Origin: an uncultured Acidobacteriota bacterium
GTDB lineage: Bacteria > Acidobacteriota > Thermoanaerobaculia > UBA5066
Assembly (NCBI GenBank): GCA_937888435.1
Contig: CALAQS010000357.1
Location: 1 to 43,211, forward strand
Length of the DNA stretch: 43,211 bases
Reading direction: 5' to 3'
A program made the position numbers and the translations under genes. This document shows positions 21,011 through 27,409 of the stretch, in pieces; positions within the stretch are counted from its first letter, which is position 1, and each line of letters opens with the position of its first letter. The notes below the pieces were generated by a model. That model saw only the letters and a program-made list of their open reading frames with translations, did no database searches and was not told where the DNA came from.

Positions 21011-22276
21011 TCAGAAGGGGGTCTTCTGGCGCGCCTGCAGGTCGGCGACGCGCGGCGGCCGCCGCAACAGCGCCAGCCGGCCCTTGCGGACTCCCACCTC
21101 GGCCGGCCATTCGTGCGAGAGGAAGAGCGGCATCGACTCGGTGAAGCCGTACGCGCCTGCGTTCTCGAAGGCGAGGAGATCGCCGCGAACGGGGAGCGGC
21201 AGCCGCGCGGCCGGGTGCAGGATGTCCAGGCTCGTGCAAAGAGGGCCGGCAAGGACGAGAGATTTCTGCGAACGGGAAGCGGGGCGAGGGCGGCCTCCGA
21301 TCCTTCCCGGCACGAGCCTCACTCGGTGCGGGGTTCCGAGGAGAAGGGGGCGGAGGAAGTGGTGGACGCCGCCGTCCACGAGGACGTAGTCGACGCCGCG
21401 GCTCCTCTTCGTGCCGAGGACCTTCACGGCGTACGTCCCGCTCTCGGCCACGAGGAATCGGCCGGGCTCGAAGACGAGGCGCGTGCCGCGAAAGCGTGAT
21501 TCGCCGGCGGCCCATTTCGCGATCCCCGCCAGCCCCTTTCTCAGAATTCCGAGGTCCAGCGGTTTCTCCTTCTCGGCGTACGGCACGCCGAAGCCGCCGC
21601 CAAAATCGACGGAGCGCAGCGGAACGGAGTATTTCTTTGAAAGTGAAAGCGCCAGAGAGAGCACGCGGCGCGTGTTCTCGACGAGAAGCCGCGCGTCGAG
21701 AACGTTCGAGGCGTTGAACACCTGAAAGCCGCACACCTCGAGGTGCGGGAATCTCCTTCTCATTCGAAGAATCCTCTGGGCGCTTTTCAAATCGAAACCG
21801 AACTTCTTCGCGCCGGGACCGCCGATCATGACCCTCTTCTCCGCGATTCCCCAGGGCGGATTCAGGCGTAGGCCGACCGCGATTCGCCTTCTCAGGCGTC
21901 TTCCGATCTGCTCGAGGCGCTCGAGCTCCCACTCGCCTTCCGCATGGATGATCGACACCCCGGCGCGCACGAGCGCCTCGAGGTCGGCGTCGGATTTCGC
22001 GGGGCCGGTCGAAAGAATCTTCGAGGGTGGCCATCCGGCGCGGCGCACCGCGAGCAGCTCGCCTCGGGACGCGACGTCCGAAGAGAGACCGAATTTTCTC
22101 AGAAAGGAAAGAATCCCGAGCGAGGGGTTGGCTTTGACCGCATACGCAAGCTCGAAGCGCGGGCCAAGTGCGGCGCTGAGCGCGCTCACGCGCGCTTCGA
22201 TGACCTCGAAGTCATAGAGATAGAACGGCGTTCCGAAGCGGCGCGCCGCCCGCTCGAGAACCGGATCGCCCTTCAC
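21011..22276 (-). CDS. lysA: PLP-dependent decarboxylase, probable diaminopimelate decarboxylase
   Basis: Last step of lysine synthesis, meso-DAP to lysine plus CO2, inferred from its place as the final gene of the lysine operon. 421 residues of the fold-III family: PLP-binding Lys in [14 protein letters not shown] near 48, the [11 protein letters not shown] region, the glycine loop [12 protein letters not shown] near 235, [11 protein letters not shown] near 285, the Cys motif GPLCTSLD near 355 and the C-terminal [13 protein letters not shown] near 385. In typical LysA the Cys motif reads CESGD-like with Glu; here it is [16 protein letters not shown] replaces the usual VDAGMNDLIRP-like stretch, resembling exosortase-associated or BtrK-like relatives. 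GTG start overlaps dapD by 4 nt. Five dispersed motif copies lie inside. Confidence 0.8.
21258..21282 (+). repeat. Dispersed motif copy in lysA
   Basis: GAGATTTCTGCGAACGGGAA then GCGG; core TTC-TGC-GAA. Confidence 0.55.
21531..21552 (-). repeat. Dispersed motif copy in lysA
   Basis: Minus strand CTCGGAATTCTGAGAAAGGG; core TTC-TGA-GAA. Encodes LGILRKG. Confidence 0.55.
21627..21649 (+). repeat. Dispersed motif copy in lysA
   Basis: AGTATTTCTTTGAAAGTGAA then AG; core TTC-TTT-GAA. Close match to the copies at 16043 and 23956. Confidence 0.65.
21750..21778 (-). repeat. Dispersed motif copy in lysA
   Basis: Minus strand AGGATTCTTCGAATGAGAAG then GAG; core TTC-TTC-GAA. It forces three rare Arg codons (aga agg aga) in a row. 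Confidence 0.6.
22090..22113 (+). repeat. Dispersed motif copy in lysA
   Basis: CGAATTTTCTCAGAAAGGAA then AGA; core TTC-TCA-GAA. Lies over the conserved FLRKFG codons. Confidence 0.55.
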
Positions 22277-23040
22277 CGCAGCGCGCTCTCGAGCGCCGTC
22301 CTCGCGTCCGTCTTCGCATCGCGATACTTCACGATCACGGCAGCCGAGAGTGAAAGCCCGCGGGCCTCGGCCCAGGCACCGGTGGCCCGCCGCGAGCCCG
22401 GGACGACGACGGCGCCCTCGGGGATGACGAGCGGGCGGTCCGGCGTCGAGCGCAGCTCGCGCTCGTTCACGGGATCGAAGACGACGCTCGAAGCCGTCAG
22501 GATGACGCCCGCCGCGAGGACGGCGCGCTTCCTGACGCGGACGCCTTCGTAGATCCCGGCTCCCCCGCCCACGAAGACCTCGTCCTCGATGACGACGGGA
22601 ACCGCGCCCACGGGCTCGAGGACGCCGCCCACCTGCGCCGCGGCTGAGAGGTGGACTTTCTTCCCGATCTGCGCGCAGGAGCCGACGAGCGCATGGCTGT
22701 CGATCATCGAGCCCTCGTCGACGTACGCGCCCACGTTCACGTAGGCGGGCGGCATCACGACGACGCCCTTCGCGAGAAACGCGCCGCGGCGAAGAGCCGT
22801 CCCGCCCGGGACGACGCGCACGCCTTCGGGAAGCGGCCGGCGCGGCGGGAGGGTGTCGCGGTCGCGGAAGAGGAGCGGGCCGGCTTCACTCGATTCCTCG
22901 ACGCCGAGCCGAAAGGCCGCGAGGATGCCCTCCTTGACAGCCGCGTTCGCCACCCAGTTTCCGTCCGCGTCGGGGGCAGCCGCGCGAACCTCGCCGCGCT
23001 CGAGCGCCCCGAGAAGTGCGACGATCTCCTCGCGCGTCAC
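22273..23040 (-). CDS. dapD: Tetrahydrodipicolinate N-succinyltransferase
   Basis: Succinylates tetrahydrodipicolinate from succinyl-CoA, marking the succinylase branch of the DAP pathway. 255 residues. The N-terminal helical domain is about 1-80; from about residue 95 a left-handed beta-helix of hexapeptide repeats is clear ([60 protein letters not shown]). The signature [17 protein letters not shown] is typical. The start is GTG, overlapping the dapA stop (GTGA); the longer ORF in the track is dapA sequence read in another frame. No dispersed motif is obvious inside, in contrast to its neighbours. Confidence 0.95.
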
Positions 23041-24005
23041 GCCGCCGCCTTTTCGACCGGCTTCCCGGCGGCGTCGAGGAGGCCGGCGCTCCGGAGCGCG
23101 TCCTCGAGCGGGGCGTGGTGCTGCGGCGAGAGCGGCACGAGCGGGAGGCGCAGGGCGCCCCCGATGAGGCCGAGCCGCGCCAGCGCCCATTTCACGGGGA
23201 TCGGATTTGATTCGCGGAAATTCGCCTTCATGAGGGGGAAAATTCTCGCCTGAAGCTCCGAGGCGCGAGCGCGATTGCCGGCGAGGGCCGCGGCGATCGC
23301 GTCCACGTACAGACCCGGGGCCTCGTTCGAGACGACGGCGATCACGCCTTCCGCGCCGCAGGCGATCATCGGAATCGCGAGCGAGTCCTCGCCCGAGAGG
23401 ACGGCGAATCCGTCCGGGCGGGCTCGGAGGATCTCGCAGGCCTGGTCGAGGCTGCCCGAGGCTTCCTTCACGGCCACGATGCGCGGGTCCTTCGCGAGCT
23501 CGAGCACGGTGTCGGGCTGCATGTTGAGTCCGGTCCTGCCCGGTACGTTGTAGAGAACGAGCGGCAGCCGGCCCGCGTCGGCGACGGCCAAAAAGTGCGC
23601 GACGAGGCCTTTCGGCGTGGGCTTGTTGTAGTAAGGCGTGACGACGAGGAGCGCGTCGGCGCCGGCCCGGCGGCACCGCTCGGCGAGGCCCTGGGATTTC
23701 CGGGTGTCGTTCGAGCCGCAGCCCGCTATCACGGTCACGCGCCGCGAGGACGCGCGTGCCTCCTCGACAACCACCGCCACGACGCGCTCGTGCTCGTCCG
23801 CGTCCAGCGTCACGGCTTCGCCCGTCGTCCCGCACGGAACGAGACCCGCGACGCCGCCCGCGATCTGGCGCTTCGCGAGACGGCGCAGGCCCGCTTCGTC
23901 GACGCTGCCGTCGTCGCGAAACGGCGTGACGATCGCGGTAAAGACCCCGGAAAGAGAAAGATTCCTTGAAGGTGAAGGGTCCTGCGCGTGTGCCGAAGCC
24001 ATCAT
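23037..24005 (-). CDS. dapA: 4-hydroxy-tetrahydrodipicolinate synthase
   Basis: Condenses pyruvate with aspartate semialdehyde, the committed step to DAP and lysine. 322 residues, slightly long. Motifs: [22 protein letters not shown] at the start of the barrel, [11 protein letters not shown] near 60 (Thr pair), [14 protein letters not shown] near 130 (catalytic Tyr), [11 protein letters not shown] near 155 and the Schiff-base Lys in [11 protein letters not shown] near 180. About 20 extra N-terminal residues ([17 protein letters not shown]) precede the usual start of homology and are largely encoded by a dispersed motif copy. The ATG is the first of two (ATGATG), overlapping the dapB stop by 4 nt. 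Confidence 0.96.
23956..23980 (+). repeat. Dispersed motif copy at the 5' end of dapA
   Basis: AAAGATTCCTTGAAGGTGAA then GGG; core TTC-CTT-GAA. Encodes much of the extra N-terminal segment of DapA. Confidence 0.6.
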
Positions 24006-24706
24006 GAGGCGCCCCCCTTTAGCGACAGGTCGTCGAAGAATTCGTCGAAGGTCAACGGGCCCGAGCGGCCCGACACGATCATCCACTCCGCGGCGCGCAC
24101 GGCGCCCTGGGCAAAGATCGAACGCGACCGGGCGCGGTGCACGAGTTCCACCGTCTCGTCGGCCCCTTCGAAGAAAACCGAATGCTCTCCCGGTTGGGCC
24201 CCCTGCCTGAGAGAGACGATCGGGACGGATCTCTTCGAAAGAGGCTCCCGCGAGATGTCGAGCGCGAGAACGCGAGCGGTCCCGGAGGGAGCGTCTTTCT
24301 TCGCCGCATGATGCCGCTCCACGATTCCCGGCTCGAACTCGGGGAACGGCGCGAGCGCGGCGGCTGCGGCGGCGACGGCGCGCCGCAGTGCGGCGACGCC
24401 GAGGGAGAAATTCGAAGAGTGAAGAAAAGGGATTCTCTGCTCCCGAGCAAGATGTGCGGCCGAAGTCACGTCCCAGCCGGTGGTGCCGGAGACGACGGGG
24501 ATTTTCTGAGAAAGGAGGAGGGGGACGACGCGCGGGGCAACGTCCGGCGCGGTGAACTCGAATGCGACGTCGCAGGCCGGGAGGTCCGAAGAGAACGAGA
24601 GGATCTCTCCTCGTCCGAATCGTCCTGCGACGTCGTGTCCGCGCTGCACGAGCGCCGCCCCGATCGCTTTCCCCATCTTCCCGTATCCGACGAGGAGCGC
24701 TCTCAT
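24002..24706 (-). CDS. dapB: 4-hydroxy-tetrahydrodipicolinate reductase
   Basis: NAD(P)H-dependent reduction following DapA. 234 residues, short of the roughly 270 of the E. coli enzyme. Motifs: nucleotide-binding [14 protein letters not shown] at the N-terminus, FEFTAPDV near 48, VSGTTGW near 70, [10 protein letters not shown] near 95 and the family signature [22 protein letters not shown] near 130 (His pair and catalytic Lys). The C-terminal [28 protein letters not shown] is typical. The ATG overlaps the lysC stop by 4 nt. Several dispersed motif copies occur within; one sits over the conserved HSSNF codons, which use tct, ttt and ctt rather than GC-rich synonyms. Confidence 0.95.
24164..24184 (-). 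repeat. Dispersed motif copy (variant) in dapB
   Basis: Minus strand GGTTTTCTTCGAAGGGGC; core TTC-TTC-GAA. Encodes VFFEG. Confidence 0.4.
24227..24246 (+). repeat. Dispersed motif copy (variant) in dapB
   Basis: CGGATCTCTTCGAAAGAGG; the core has CTC in place of TTC. Confidence 0.35.
24401..24429 (+). repeat. Dispersed motif copy (variant) in dapB
   Basis: GAAATTCGAAGAGTGAAGAA; left part shortened, right part GAAG-GTGAAGA well kept. Overlies the conserved LHSSNFS codons. Confidence 0.4.
24497..24520 (+). repeat. Dispersed motif copy in dapB
   Basis: GGGGATTTTCTGAGAAAGGA then GGAG; core TTC-TGA-GAA. Confidence 0.55.
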
Positions 24707-24720
24707 TCGAAGAACTCCCG
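24697..24720 (-). repeat. Dispersed motif copy at the lysC/dapB junction
   Basis: Minus strand GGGAGTTCTTCGAATGAGAG; core TTC-TTC-GAA. It contains the lysC stop and the dapB ATG. Confidence 0.5.
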
Positions 24721-26067
24721 GTGAAGCCTGCGCAGCGCTTCCGGGGCGTCGTTCCCGTCGACCACGAACGTCACGTTCGTGTCGGACGCGCCCTGCGAGA
24801 TGAGAACGACATTCACGTCGCCGACCGCGCCGAAGACGCGCACGGCGACGCCCGCGGTCGAGCGCAGGCCTTTTCCGACGACGGATATGACCGCGAGATG
24901 CGGGAGGAGCGAGACCTCGGCGAACTCGGAGAGGTCGCGCACGACGCCCTCGAGCGAGGCCTTCTCGTCCACCGTGATGGAAATCGACACCTCGCTCGTG
25001 GCGATGACGTCCACCGGCACGCCGTGCTTCTCGAAGACGGAGAAGACCTTCGCGGCGTACCCATGGGCGAGCAGCATGCGCGGGCTGCCCACGAAGAGCG
25101 CCGTCACTCCCCTTCGCATCGCGACGGCCCGGACGCCGTTTCCGGGCGCGTCCTGCCGCACGACCGTCCCGGGGCACTCCGGCCGGAACGAGTTCCTCAC
25201 GGCGACCGGGATCCCGCGCGCCACGGCTGGGCGGATCGTCGCCGGATGGAGCACCTTCGCGCCGAAAAACGCGAGCTCGGCCGCCTCGGGATAGCTCACC
25301 TCCGGCACGAGGCGCGCCGCAGGCACGATGCGCGGGTCGGCCGTCAGAATCCCGTCCACGTCGGTCCAGATCTCGATGCGGCCCACGGCGCGGCCGACGT
25401 CATGGAGCGCGGCGCCGAAGAGCGCGGCCGAGTAGTCCGAGCCGCCTCGGCCGAGCGTCGTCGTCGAGCCGTCCGGAGCGGCACCGACGAAGCCTCCCGT
25501 CACGACAGTCCGGCCAGCCGCGAGGTGAGGCGCGACGCGCAGGGCCACGCGGACGGCCGTCTCTTTTTCGTCCGCAAGGGCCGCGCCGTACGAGGCATTC
25601 GTCGCGAGGATCTCACGCGGGTCGATCCACACGCTCTCTCCGCCGCTCGCGCGGAGCGCGGCGGCGACGAGACGTGAGCAGATCAATTCTCCGATCGCAA
25701 GGAGCGCGTCCGACGTTCGAGGAGAGATTTCTTCGAGTAGAGAGATTCCGAGAGAAAGCTCCCGGCAGCGCCGCATCTCCTCGTCGATCGCCACGGCGCA
25801 GCTTCGCGCCTCGCCTTCCGAGAGAACAAGCCCATCGAGCGTCGCGCGATGGCGATCTTCCAGTTCGTCGAGTTTGGACTCGGTGGCGGCCCGCTCTTTG
25901 TCTTTCGAAGAATTCCTCAATCCGACCAGGAAATCGGTCACCCCAGCCATTGCCGAGACGACGACCAGACACGGGTCTCCCCCGCGCGTCCGCACGAGCC
26001 GGGCGACGTCCAAAATCCGCTCGGCCGATCCGACCGAGGTGCCGCCGAACTTGAGAACGTCGGTCAT
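24703..26067 (-). CDS. lysC: Aspartate kinase, LysC (AKIII) type
   Basis: Phosphorylates aspartate, the entry to Lys/Thr/Met synthesis. 454 residues, the size of single-polypeptide AKIII-like enzymes. Motifs: the N-terminal VLKFGGTSVGSAERI, VVVSAMAGVTDFL near 37, FVGAAPDGSTTTLGRGGSDYSAAL near 195 and WTDVDGILTADPRIVP near 245. A C-terminal regulatory pair of ACT domains follows (near 320-454: FSVFEKHGVPVDVIATSEVSISITV and ISVVGKGLRSTAGVAVRVFGAVGDVNVVLISQGASDTNVTFVV). Feedback inhibition by lysine is expected from this architecture. The ATG overlaps asd by 4 nt. Dispersed motif copies lie in the variable GLRNSSKDKER segment, over LLEEISPR and at the very C-terminus (REFFE). Confidence 0.95.
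   Translation of the reverse strand: MTDVLKFGGTSVGSAERILDVARLVRTRGGDPCLVVVSAMAGVTDFLVGLRNSSKDKERAATESKLDELEDRHRATLDGLVLSEGEARSCAVAIDEEMRRCRELSLGISLLEEISPRTSDALLAIGELICSRLVAAALRASGGESVWIDPREILATNASYGAALADEKETAVRVALRVAPHLAAGRTVVTGGFVGAAPDGSTTTLGRGGSDYSAALFGAALHDVGRAVGRIEIWTDVDGILTADPRIVPAARLVPEVSYPEAAELAFFGAKVLHPATIRPAVARGIPVAVRNSFRPECPGTVVRQDAPGNGVRAVAMRRGVTALFVGSPRMLLAHGYAAKVFSVFEKHGVPVDVIATSEVSISITVDEKASLEGVVRDLSEFAEVSLLPHLAVISVVGKGLRSTAGVAVRVFGAVGDVNVVLISQGASDTNVTFVVDGNDAPEALRRLHREFFE
25722..25746 (+). repeat. Dispersed motif copy in lysC
   Basis: GAGAGATTTCTTCGAGTAGA then GAG; core TTC-TTC-GAG (one mismatch). Confidence 0.5.
25893..25920 (-). repeat. Dispersed motif copy in lysC
   Basis: Minus strand AGGAATTCTTCGAAAGACAA then AGAG; core TTC-TTC-GAA. 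Encodes RNSSKDKE in a variable region. Confidence 0.6.
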
Positions 26068-27143
26068 CGCACGGGAGCTCGCGTCGCGACGCGCCCCTGC
26101 GCGAGGAGCAGCTCGGCATTGAGCAGCGCCGCCCCGGCCGCCCCGCGCACGGTGTTGTGGACGAGAACCGTGAACTTCAGGTCGAAGGCGGGATCGGGGC
26201 GCAGGCGGCCCACCGTCACCGTCATGCCGTTCCCCGCTTCGACGTCGCGCGCGGGCTGCGGGCGGTCGCGCTCGTCGCGGACCGCGATCGGCCGCGCCGG
26301 AGCAGAGGGCAGCTTCAGCCGCTGCGGCTCGCCCGTGAAGGCCTCGAGCGCGGCGCGCACGTCGTCGAGAGATGCCTTCTTTTTCAGGTCGACAAAGACC
26401 GACTCCATGTGGCCGTCGCGCACCGGCACGCGATTGACGGAGACGGAGATCGGGAACTCCGCGTCCTGAACGCGCCCGTTCACGAGGCGCCCCAGGATTT
26501 TTCGCGGCTCCCTTTCGATCTTCTCCTCCTCTCCGTCGATGAAGGGGATCACGTTGCCCAGAGCGTCCAGCGACGCCACGCCGGGATAGCCCGCGCCCGA
26601 CAGCGCCTGCATCGTCGTGACGAGCACGCGCCCCACGCCGAACGCGCGCTCGAGCGGCGCGAGCGCCATGGCGAGGCCGACGACGGAGCAGTTCGGGTTC
26701 GTCACGATACCGCCGCCCGTCGCGCGCCAGGACTGCAGGTCGAGGAGGCTGAGGTGGTCCGGGTTCACTTCGGGGATGACGAGCGGGACGTCCGGCTTCA
26801 TCCGGAACGACTTGGTGTTCGACACGACGAGCTTCCCGCGCGAGGCTTGAAGCGGCTCCACCGTGTCGGCCACGGCGGCATCGAGCGCGGAGAGGCAGAG
26901 GGGCGAGGACAGCTCGTCCTCGACGGACGTTACGGCGAGGTCGCTCGCGGCGGCCGGGATGTCGCCCGGCAGGATCCACCGCGTCGCGTCCGCGTAGCGC
27001 TTCCCCGCCGACCTCTCCGAGGCCGCGACCTCCGCGAGGACGAACCGCGGGTGTCCGTCGAGCAGCGAGACGAGGCGCTGTCCCACGGCGCCCGTCGCGC
27101 CGAGGACCGCCACCGGAATCCGGAAATCGTTCGCGGTCGCCAT
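26064..27143 (-). CDS. asd: Aspartate-semialdehyde dehydrogenase
   Basis: Reduces aspartyl phosphate to aspartate semialdehyde with NADPH. 359 residues of the archaeal/fungal-type subfamily. The Rossmann motif is PVAVLGATGAVGQRLVSLL. The catalytic Cys is in GGGIVTNPNCSVVGLAMAL near 152 and the catalytic His region is NRVPVRDGHMESVFVDL near 248. EKIEREPRKILG lies between. GAGAGGAGC lies 5-6 nt before the ATG. First structural gene of the operon asd-lysC-dapB-dapA-dapD-lysA, sitting directly downstream of the attenuator hairpin. No dispersed motif copy is obvious in it. Confidence 0.96.
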   Translation of the reverse strand: MATANDFRIPVAVLGATGAVGQRLVSLLDGHPRFVLAEVAASERSAGKRYADATRWILPGDIPAAASDLAVTSVEDELSSPLCLSALDAAVADTVEPLQASRGKLVVSNTKSFRMKPDVPLVIPEVNPDHLSLLDLQSWRATGGGIVTNPNCSVVGLAMALAPLERAFGVGRVLVTTMQALSGAGYPGVASLDALGNVIPFIDGEEEKIEREPRKILGRLVNGRVQDAEFPISVSVNRVPVRDGHMESVFVDLKKKASLDDVRAALEAFTGEPQRLKLPSAPARPIAVRDERDRPQPARDVEAGNGMTVTVGRLRPDPAFDLKFTVLVHNTVRGAAGAALLNAELLLAQGRVATRAPVR

Positions 27144-27164
27144 GGGTGCTCCTCTCGAAACGAA

Positions 27165-27190
27165 AGAGCCCGCCGTTCAAGGCGGGCCCT
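27165..27190 (-). terminator. Attenuator terminator hairpin (3:4) before asd
   Basis: On the minus strand AGGGCCCGCC-TTGAAC-GGCGGGCTCT forms a 10-bp stem (one G-T) with a 6-nt loop, followed by TTTCGTTTCG. It lies between the leader peptide ORF and the asd ribosome site, 22 nt before the asd ATG. Its 5' arm is also the partner of the upstream antiterminator segment. Confidence 0.8.
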
Positions 27191-27251
27191 GGTGTGCCTC
27201 CTGGGATCGTCGAAACGCGTCGATCTACAGAACGCTCCCTCGCCCGCCTTG
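27178..27251 (-). promoter_or_regulatory. Antiterminator pairing (2:3) of the lysine-operon leader
   Basis: CAAGGCGGGC (minus, 27251-27242, inside the leader ORF) is perfectly complementary over 10 bp to GCCCGCCTTG (27187-27178), the 5' arm and loop of the terminator. Forming this helix would prevent the terminator. A competing 1:2 helix pairs CGCCCG (27288-27283) with CGGGCG (27246-27241), and all four leader Lys codons lie in its loop. This is the layout of a ribosome-stalling attenuator. Confidence 0.7.
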
Positions 27252-27302
27252 CGGCGTCGTCTTCTTCGCGGTCTTGCGCTTTCGGGCGCAGGCGGCGCTC
27301 AT
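27225..27302 (-). CDS. Lys/Thr-rich leader peptide of the lysine operon
   Basis: A 25-codon ORF absent from the supplied track, ATG to TAG. The peptide contains ARKRKTAKKTT: four Lys (codons 8, 10, 13, 14) and three Thr (11, 15, 16) within nine codons, all Lys as AAG. It lies between a sigma70-like promoter and the terminator hairpin in front of asd. Proposed role: a sensor whose translation reports charged tRNA-Lys (perhaps also tRNA-Thr); stalling would free the antiterminator and let transcription enter the operon. There is no Shine-Dalgarno, and the predicted transcription start is only about 4 nt before the ATG, so it may be translated from a leaderless 5' end. A chance ORF cannot be excluded, but the coincidence of content, position and RNA pairing is strong. 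Confidence 0.68.
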   Translation of the reverse strand: MSAACARKRKTAKKTTPQGGRGSVL

Positions 27303-27312
27303 CGTGGCGTGC

Positions 27313-27342
27313 AGCCTAGTGCGCCGGGAACGGGCCTGTCAA
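27313..27342 (-). promoter_or_regulatory. Promoter of the lysine operon
   Basis: TTGACA (27342-27337, perfect -35), 18-nt spacer, TAGGCT (27318-27313, weak -10). The start of transcription would be about 27306, a few nt before the leader peptide ATG. No lysine riboswitch-like structure can fit in so short a 5' segment. Confidence 0.65.
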
Positions 27343-27379: not shown

Positions 27380-27409
27380 TTGACCCTCGCCGGAGCGGCC
27401 CTTGATAAT
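27380..27409 (+). promoter_or_regulatory. Promoter of the 2-oxoacid dehydrogenase operon
   Basis: TTGACC (27380-27385), 18-nt spacer, GATAAT (27404-27409). It diverges from the lysine-operon promoter, the two -35 boxes being about 37 nt apart. The ATG of the E1 alpha gene lies 36 nt after the -10. Confidence 0.6.

Follow-up and report, generated by a model that had tools for sequence, protein, structure and literature searches.

The asd-lysC-dapB-dapA-dapD-lysA operon in the window (the whole stretch of DNA analysed, 43,211 nt) is preceded by what is probably a ribosome-mediated transcription attenuator. We assign this reading a probability of about 0.85, based on sequence comparison and RNA modelling. 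The preliminary description of this DNA had proposed such an attenuator, and the proposal is strongly supported by the sequences: the leader ORF is conserved, its elements are laid out in frame, a terminator follows, the antiterminator shows compensatory change, and leaders of the same control type appear to stand before ilvD. For the leader itself we infer translation, stalling, termination and a response to amino acids.

The sensor would be charged tRNA-Lys and tRNA-Thr, perhaps with Met too. Transcription would start at the leader ATG or no more than a few bases from it, and the ribosome would trail the polymerase. With ample Lys and Thr, the ribosome would clear the control codons and cover or unwind segment 2 (GGCGGGC). 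The antiterminator would then not form, the GCCCGCC/GGCGGGC terminator would fold, and transcription would stop before asd. With scarce Lys or Thr, the ribosome would wait on an AAG, ACG or ACC codon and leave segment 2 free. Free segment 2 and segment 3 (GCCCGCC) would then make up a long antiterminator hairpin that keeps the terminator from forming, and the operon would be transcribed.

Layout and conservation of the leader

Table 1. Features of the putative asd attenuator; coordinates are those of the window.
Feature	Position	Strand	Remarks
−35 box TTGACA	27337–27342	−	invariant in 11/11 leaders
−10 box TAGGCT	27313–27318	−	N18 spacer from TTGACA; leader ATG 10 nt downstream
Leader ORF, 25 codons, MSAACARKRKTAKKTTPQGGRGSVL, then stop	ATG 27302 to TAG 27225	−	frame kept in 11 genomes
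CGA-AAG (Arg-Lys) codons, front of control segment	27279–27284	−	invariant in 11/11 leaders
Control segment CGC AAG ACC GCG AAG AAG ACG ACG CCG CAA	27249–27278	−	Lys/Thr/Met enrichment
Segment 2, CAAGGCGGGC, predicted antiterminator 5' arm; GGC-GGG codons invariant	27242–27251	−	
Predicted antiterminator hairpin: segments 2 and 3, inner stem, and an apical hairpin close to the stop of the leader	27178–27251	−	fold z, swap test
Intrinsic terminator hairpin (3:4)	27165–27190	−	outer pairs vary on both sides
Possible segment 1, CGCCCG	27283–27288	−	could pair with CGGGCG, 27246–27241
asd, leading gene of the operon	26064–27143	−	GAGAGGAG precedes the start at 27143
lysC-dapB-dapA-dapD-lysA, remainder of the operon	21011–26064	−	

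The preliminary description had listed a TTGACA-N18-TAGGCT promoter, a 25-codon ORF with four AAG Lys codons and three Thr codons, a 10-bp terminator-type hairpin just before asd, and a 10-bp complementarity between the end of the ORF and the terminator 5' arm. All four are present on the minus strand, the promoter at 27342–27313 and the ORF at 27302–27225. Specifically, codons 8, 10, 13 and 14 are Lys and codons 11, 15 and 16 are Thr, while CAAGGCGGGC (27251–27242) is the perfect complement of GCCCGCCTTG (27187–27178) over 10 nt. The terminator stem contains 10 pairs, 8 of them G-C, with a loop of 6 nt and a T-rich tail, TTCGTTTC, at 27164–27157. The tail is interrupted, a point that we count against the attenuator reading. 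No other terminator-like site than 27190–27165 occurs in the region, with 0.3 expected from shuffled sequences; an intrinsic terminator, as an attenuator requires, is located between the leader ORF and asd. The asd ribosome-binding site lies directly behind the terminator tail, and the interval between terminator and asd has no space for a further promoter. On the plus strand, a promoter-like TTGACC-N18-GATAAT (27380–27409) is located ahead of a divergent pyruvate-dehydrogenase-like gene.

Given where the −10 box lies, the leader transcript is probably leaderless or almost so, and the ATG stands in a place that points to leaderless translation. The attenuator transcript of Sinorhizobium meliloti rnTrpL/trpL likewise starts with the AUG of its leader ORF (PMC7298713), which, unlike the ORF here, carries Trp codons and belongs to trpE. 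The hom and second aspartokinase genes of the window's own genome have the same start type as the leader, and this lineage may commonly produce leaderless transcripts. A −10-like box a few nucleotides before the start codon was seen for hom (L151, L152, L154 and L155) and for the second aspartokinase (L165–L168 and L173).

The source genome assembly is fragmented (366 contigs). Within its taxonomic order, asd was found in 10 other genomes of its own family (f1; one, G011, split over two contigs), in one genome of family f2 and in two of f3; those relatives that carry a name belong to Acidobacteriota, and one of them has the label Thermoanaerobaculia. With the window included, 11 of the 12 f1 and f2 genomes with an orthologous asd have the leader (10/11 in f1, 1/1 in f2). 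In the remaining f1 genome, G005, no leader was found within 350 nt upstream of the same operon, and the pdhA-asd gap is 1.6 kb. No leader of this kind was seen ahead of asd in the f3 genomes or in other families of the class.

The 11 leaders are mutually related, with 10 from f1 and one from f2, and each has the complete arrangement with its elements in identical order. The ATG lies 7–10 nt downstream of the −10 box, CGA-AAG and GGC-GGG are in frame at a spacing of 36 or 39 nt, the stop codon comes 11–29 nt past GGC-GGG, and the terminator, GCCCGC..GCGGGC, follows. The spacing holds even in the f2 leader (L011) and the G008 leader (L005), whose other codons nearly all differ. Indels within the ORF are multiples of 3; past the stop codon other lengths occur too. 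L011 was counted among the leaders by position and layout, not by covariance score: the leader covariance model (30.5 bits for L011) was rejected as evidence for being unspecific, with a 28.9-bit match in G016 sitting in an NtrC-like regulator gene.

The G008 leader (L005:1253–1435) keeps the frame, CGA-AAG and GGC-GGG, with one Lys and zero Thr codons in the control stretch. With its loss of Lys/Thr codons and its weak antiterminator, it may be decaying or re-targeted; like the missing leader of G005, it counts against the attenuator reading. Homologues that retain the hairpin and lack the ORF or its Lys codons, or pairings that do not co-vary, had been named beforehand as evidence against an attenuator, and this one degenerate member is the only such case.

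Arg-Lys and one Gly are the sole invariant residues of the leader peptide. The invariance of Arg-Lys and its fixed distance to Gly-Gly exceed the needs of codon counting and would suit nascent-peptide arrest, in which, as with TnaC or SpeFL, the peptide senses a ligand in the ribosome tunnel. However, Lys, Thr and Met replace one another freely around the possible stall site, a pattern in keeping with codon counting, and base pairing accounts for Gly-Gly; we consider arrest improbable. The peptide is also basic with a conserved core, as a functional small protein would be, and asd could depend on read-through past the terminator belonging to such a protein or to a small terminated RNA. In Sinorhizobium, the leader products rnTrpL and peTrpL are able to act in trans (PMC7298713). 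Yet the composition of the peptide tracks Lys and Thr rather than a fold, and a small protein would leave the antiterminator unexplained, so that this alternative has very little probability.

Predicted competing structures in the leader RNA

Folding of the RNA from GGCGGG to GCCCGCC predicts a single long hairpin in every leader, far larger than the 10 bp first noted. Its fold z is −3.5 in the window and on average −3.9 over the 11 leaders, ranging from −3.2 to −5.1 in ten of them and reaching −1.9 in L005. Outside the GC-rich core the sequence varies between clades, and the two halves still fit each other. With the GC core left out, pairing energy is −22.9 for cognate halves, −23.1 for halves swapped within a clade and −14.9 for halves swapped between clades, a cost of 8 kcal/mol for the between-clade swap. 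Whichever member represented each clade, the true pairing ranked best of 120 permutations; two control segment pairs put through the same test showed no such effect (0.40–0.61). Judging from these comparisons, the antiterminator is maintained through compensatory change. In the terminator, three of nine sequences have both partners of the two outer pairs changed (G-C to A-U), with pairing kept. The leader thus has the mutually exclusive 2:3 antiterminator, with compensatory change, that is expected of an attenuator.

Of the 1:2, 2:3 and 3:4 helices proposed in the preliminary description, the second is borne out by the swap test and the third by the outer-pair changes, whereas the swap test for the 1:2 helix was not significant (0.09–0.12). 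The 6-bp CGCCCG/CGGGCG pairing (27288–27283 with 27246–27241) is possible as drawn but lacks clear comparative support as a helix. In modelled nascent RNA, the 1:2 pairing already exists in part (0.33–1.0) while segment 3 is still to be transcribed. The free RNA favours the antiterminator in folding, so that an untranslated leader might leave the operon switched on, barring early pairing of segment 1; this too counts against the attenuator reading.

When the modelled ribosome stalls at control codons as far as the final Lys/Thr one, the terminator 5' arm is sequestered, mostly at 0.8–1.0; once it has reached Pro-x-Gly-Gly, sequestration drops. By computation, the placement of the control codons would let a stalled ribosome expose segment 2 and a moving ribosome cover it.

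Two conserved structures, antiterminator and terminator, would also be present in a metabolite- or protein-binding RNA switch with the ORF as a by-product. An Rfam search of the window, however, returned one tRNA only, with no match to the lysine riboswitch (L box), T-box or any other riboswitch. Moreover, the ORF keeps its frame with a biased codon set, and the inner antiterminator sequence is unconserved between clades, unlike a ligand pocket. We consider such a switch very improbable.

Control codons and the aspartate pathway

Between CGA-AAG and GGC-GGG of the window's leader, 6 of 10 codons are Lys, Thr or Met (binomial p = 4e-5 for this leader alone), compared with a background of 8.1% of codons in the window's genes. 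Nine f1 leaders have 5–8 such codons among 10–11 (p from 1e-3 to 2e-7), and L011 has 4 of 11, all of them Lys with no Thr (p = 9e-3). The stretch is enriched in 10 of the 11 leaders, the exception being L005, and the short ORF ahead of the operon thus contains a cluster of end-product codons as an attenuator would. Comparison with relatives, which the preliminary description had recommended for Lys codons, upholds Lys/Thr/Met codons in 10 of 11 leaders and finds Lys without Thr in only one of these ten.

Over all leaders, the control codons that start with A are Thr (36), Lys (18), Met (8), Arg (2), Ile (1), Asn (1) and Ser (1). A-rich RNA as the source of the Lys and Thr codons was ruled out by the near absence of Asn, Ser, Arg (AGR) and Ile codons; the A-starting codons for these four amino acids are common in the window's genes, indicating that the bias concerns amino acids and not just A-richness. 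The likely signals are Thr and Lys; the case for Met is less sure, its excess over the window's genes among A-starting codons being modest.

As a Lys-only sensor, the Lys-rich leader of the preliminary description does not hold across the family, where Lys-only describes L011 alone. A similarly built attenuator responding to lysine alone, with the Thr and Met codons incidental, would agree with the product of the operon, lysine, with the four Lys and three Thr codons of the window's leader and with the Thr-free control stretch of L011. Against this, all nine informative f1 leaders have at least as many Thr as Lys codons in the control stretch, and Thr is more than 8-fold enriched there relative to the window's genes. 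In addition, asd is apparently single copy, with hom and thrC elsewhere in the genome, so the asd operon should also feed Thr and Met synthesis. Sensing of Lys and Thr is more likely than sensing of Lys alone, which we consider unlikely. Codons for Lys, Thr and Met would suit the operon, since asd is the step common to the synthesis of all three.

The operon order asd-lysC-dapB-dapA-dapD-lysA is fully conserved in six of the relatives examined, and in the remaining ones, where the contig ends or lysA was undetected, the visible part agrees. Homoserine dehydrogenase is present in 13 of 14 f1 genomes. Most f1 genomes have thrC matches above the cut-off and a second aspartokinase as well, in several of them beside thrC. 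The f2 genome G014, whose leader has Lys and no Thr control codons, is without homoserine dehydrogenase and without a thrC-grade match, and has one aspartokinase. Its f2 sister G016 is without homoserine dehydrogenase, a thrC-grade match, asd and a true aspartokinase; both are probable amino-acid auxotrophs. We tentatively propose, at somewhat less than even odds, a joint gauge of Lys and Thr whose codons track the branches kept: Lys and Thr (and Met) where the homoserine branch is present, Lys alone where homoserine dehydrogenase and threonine synthase are absent (G014). The match in G014 is a hint rather than a test, because it concerns one genome and its sister G016 shows no asd. Leader codon content could serve as a guide to the amino acids that an uncultured organism is still able to synthesize.

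Known attenuators and further leaders

The enterobacterial thr attenuator (thrL) has Thr and Ile codons, mutual exclusion of terminator and antiterminator, and a common-pathway gene first. The leader described here resembles it in the last two traits and in being an ORF with several codons for end products of the aspartate pathway. It differs in that Lys codons replace Ile, asd-lysC-dap-lysA rather than thrABC is controlled, and the start is likely leaderless; comparison by eye shows no sequence similarity. The thr leader has eight ACC codons (PMC1183508). Threonine genes are under attenuators and lysine genes under L-box riboswitches (PMC1262725). The L box thus controls lysine genes in other bacteria, but the present locus has no Rfam match to it and no long conserved aptamer.

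SEP5 of Sinorhizobium meliloti is a small translated ORF in which six Thr and three Lys codons occur; it lies in the 5'-UTR of what the authors name an aspartate dehydrogenase gene, and they suggest a leader peptide (PMC10117765). Unlike the case for the present leader, the suggestion draws on codons and position only, and SEP5 is described as conserved in Sinorhizobium only (PMC10117765). The preliminary description knew of no commonly cited Lys leader attenuator, and this agrees with the open-access literature, where no demonstrated Lys-codon leader was found and SEP5, as a suggestion, is the sole candidate (PMC10117765). What is new is the codon set and the host lineage, in a little-studied phylum; the mechanism is already known.

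Ile/Leu/Val-rich leaders with terminators stand ahead of ilvD in six relatives (e.g. SVVLSLLVLVLLVLVIGPPGVG, L220). The window's own genome has a similar ORF before ilvD (L222, G000:C340), with a GC hairpin and T-run behind it by eye. Across L216–L222, within 420 nt upstream of ilvD, Ile/Leu/Val leaders are followed by ACCCCCGGG-GAAA-CCCGGGGGT terminators. The ilvD leaders are probable branched-chain attenuators in the same family as the window, and the lineage therefore appears to use attenuation elsewhere. They share with the asd leader the lineage, a leader ORF, a terminator-complementary segment and the terminator style, and differ in their branched-chain codons and CCCCCGGG terminators. 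Upstream of hom and of the second aspartokinase-thrC cluster no attenuator was seen, with likely leaderless starts only, and no leaders were found for trpE, ilvB and hisD, which seem operon-internal.

A 2010 survey listed almost no Acidobacteria attenuators with known function, and leader-peptide systems were then known mainly in Proteobacteria and Actinobacteria (PMC2965389). The asd leader, the ilvD leaders and ORFs of Thermomicrobia suggest that attenuation is more widespread. The latter are Thr-rich short ORFs (MNAVRSATRTTTGTTATRCAGVRSGSP; VRHFVITITGMTMTTTAGTRSEVVD) before asd in Thermomicrobium and relatives (L054, L084, L109 and L116) and in Sphaerobacteraceae (L077), all Chloroflexota, and are possible Thr attenuators of asd. 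GC hairpins with T-runs lie downstream of these ORFs.
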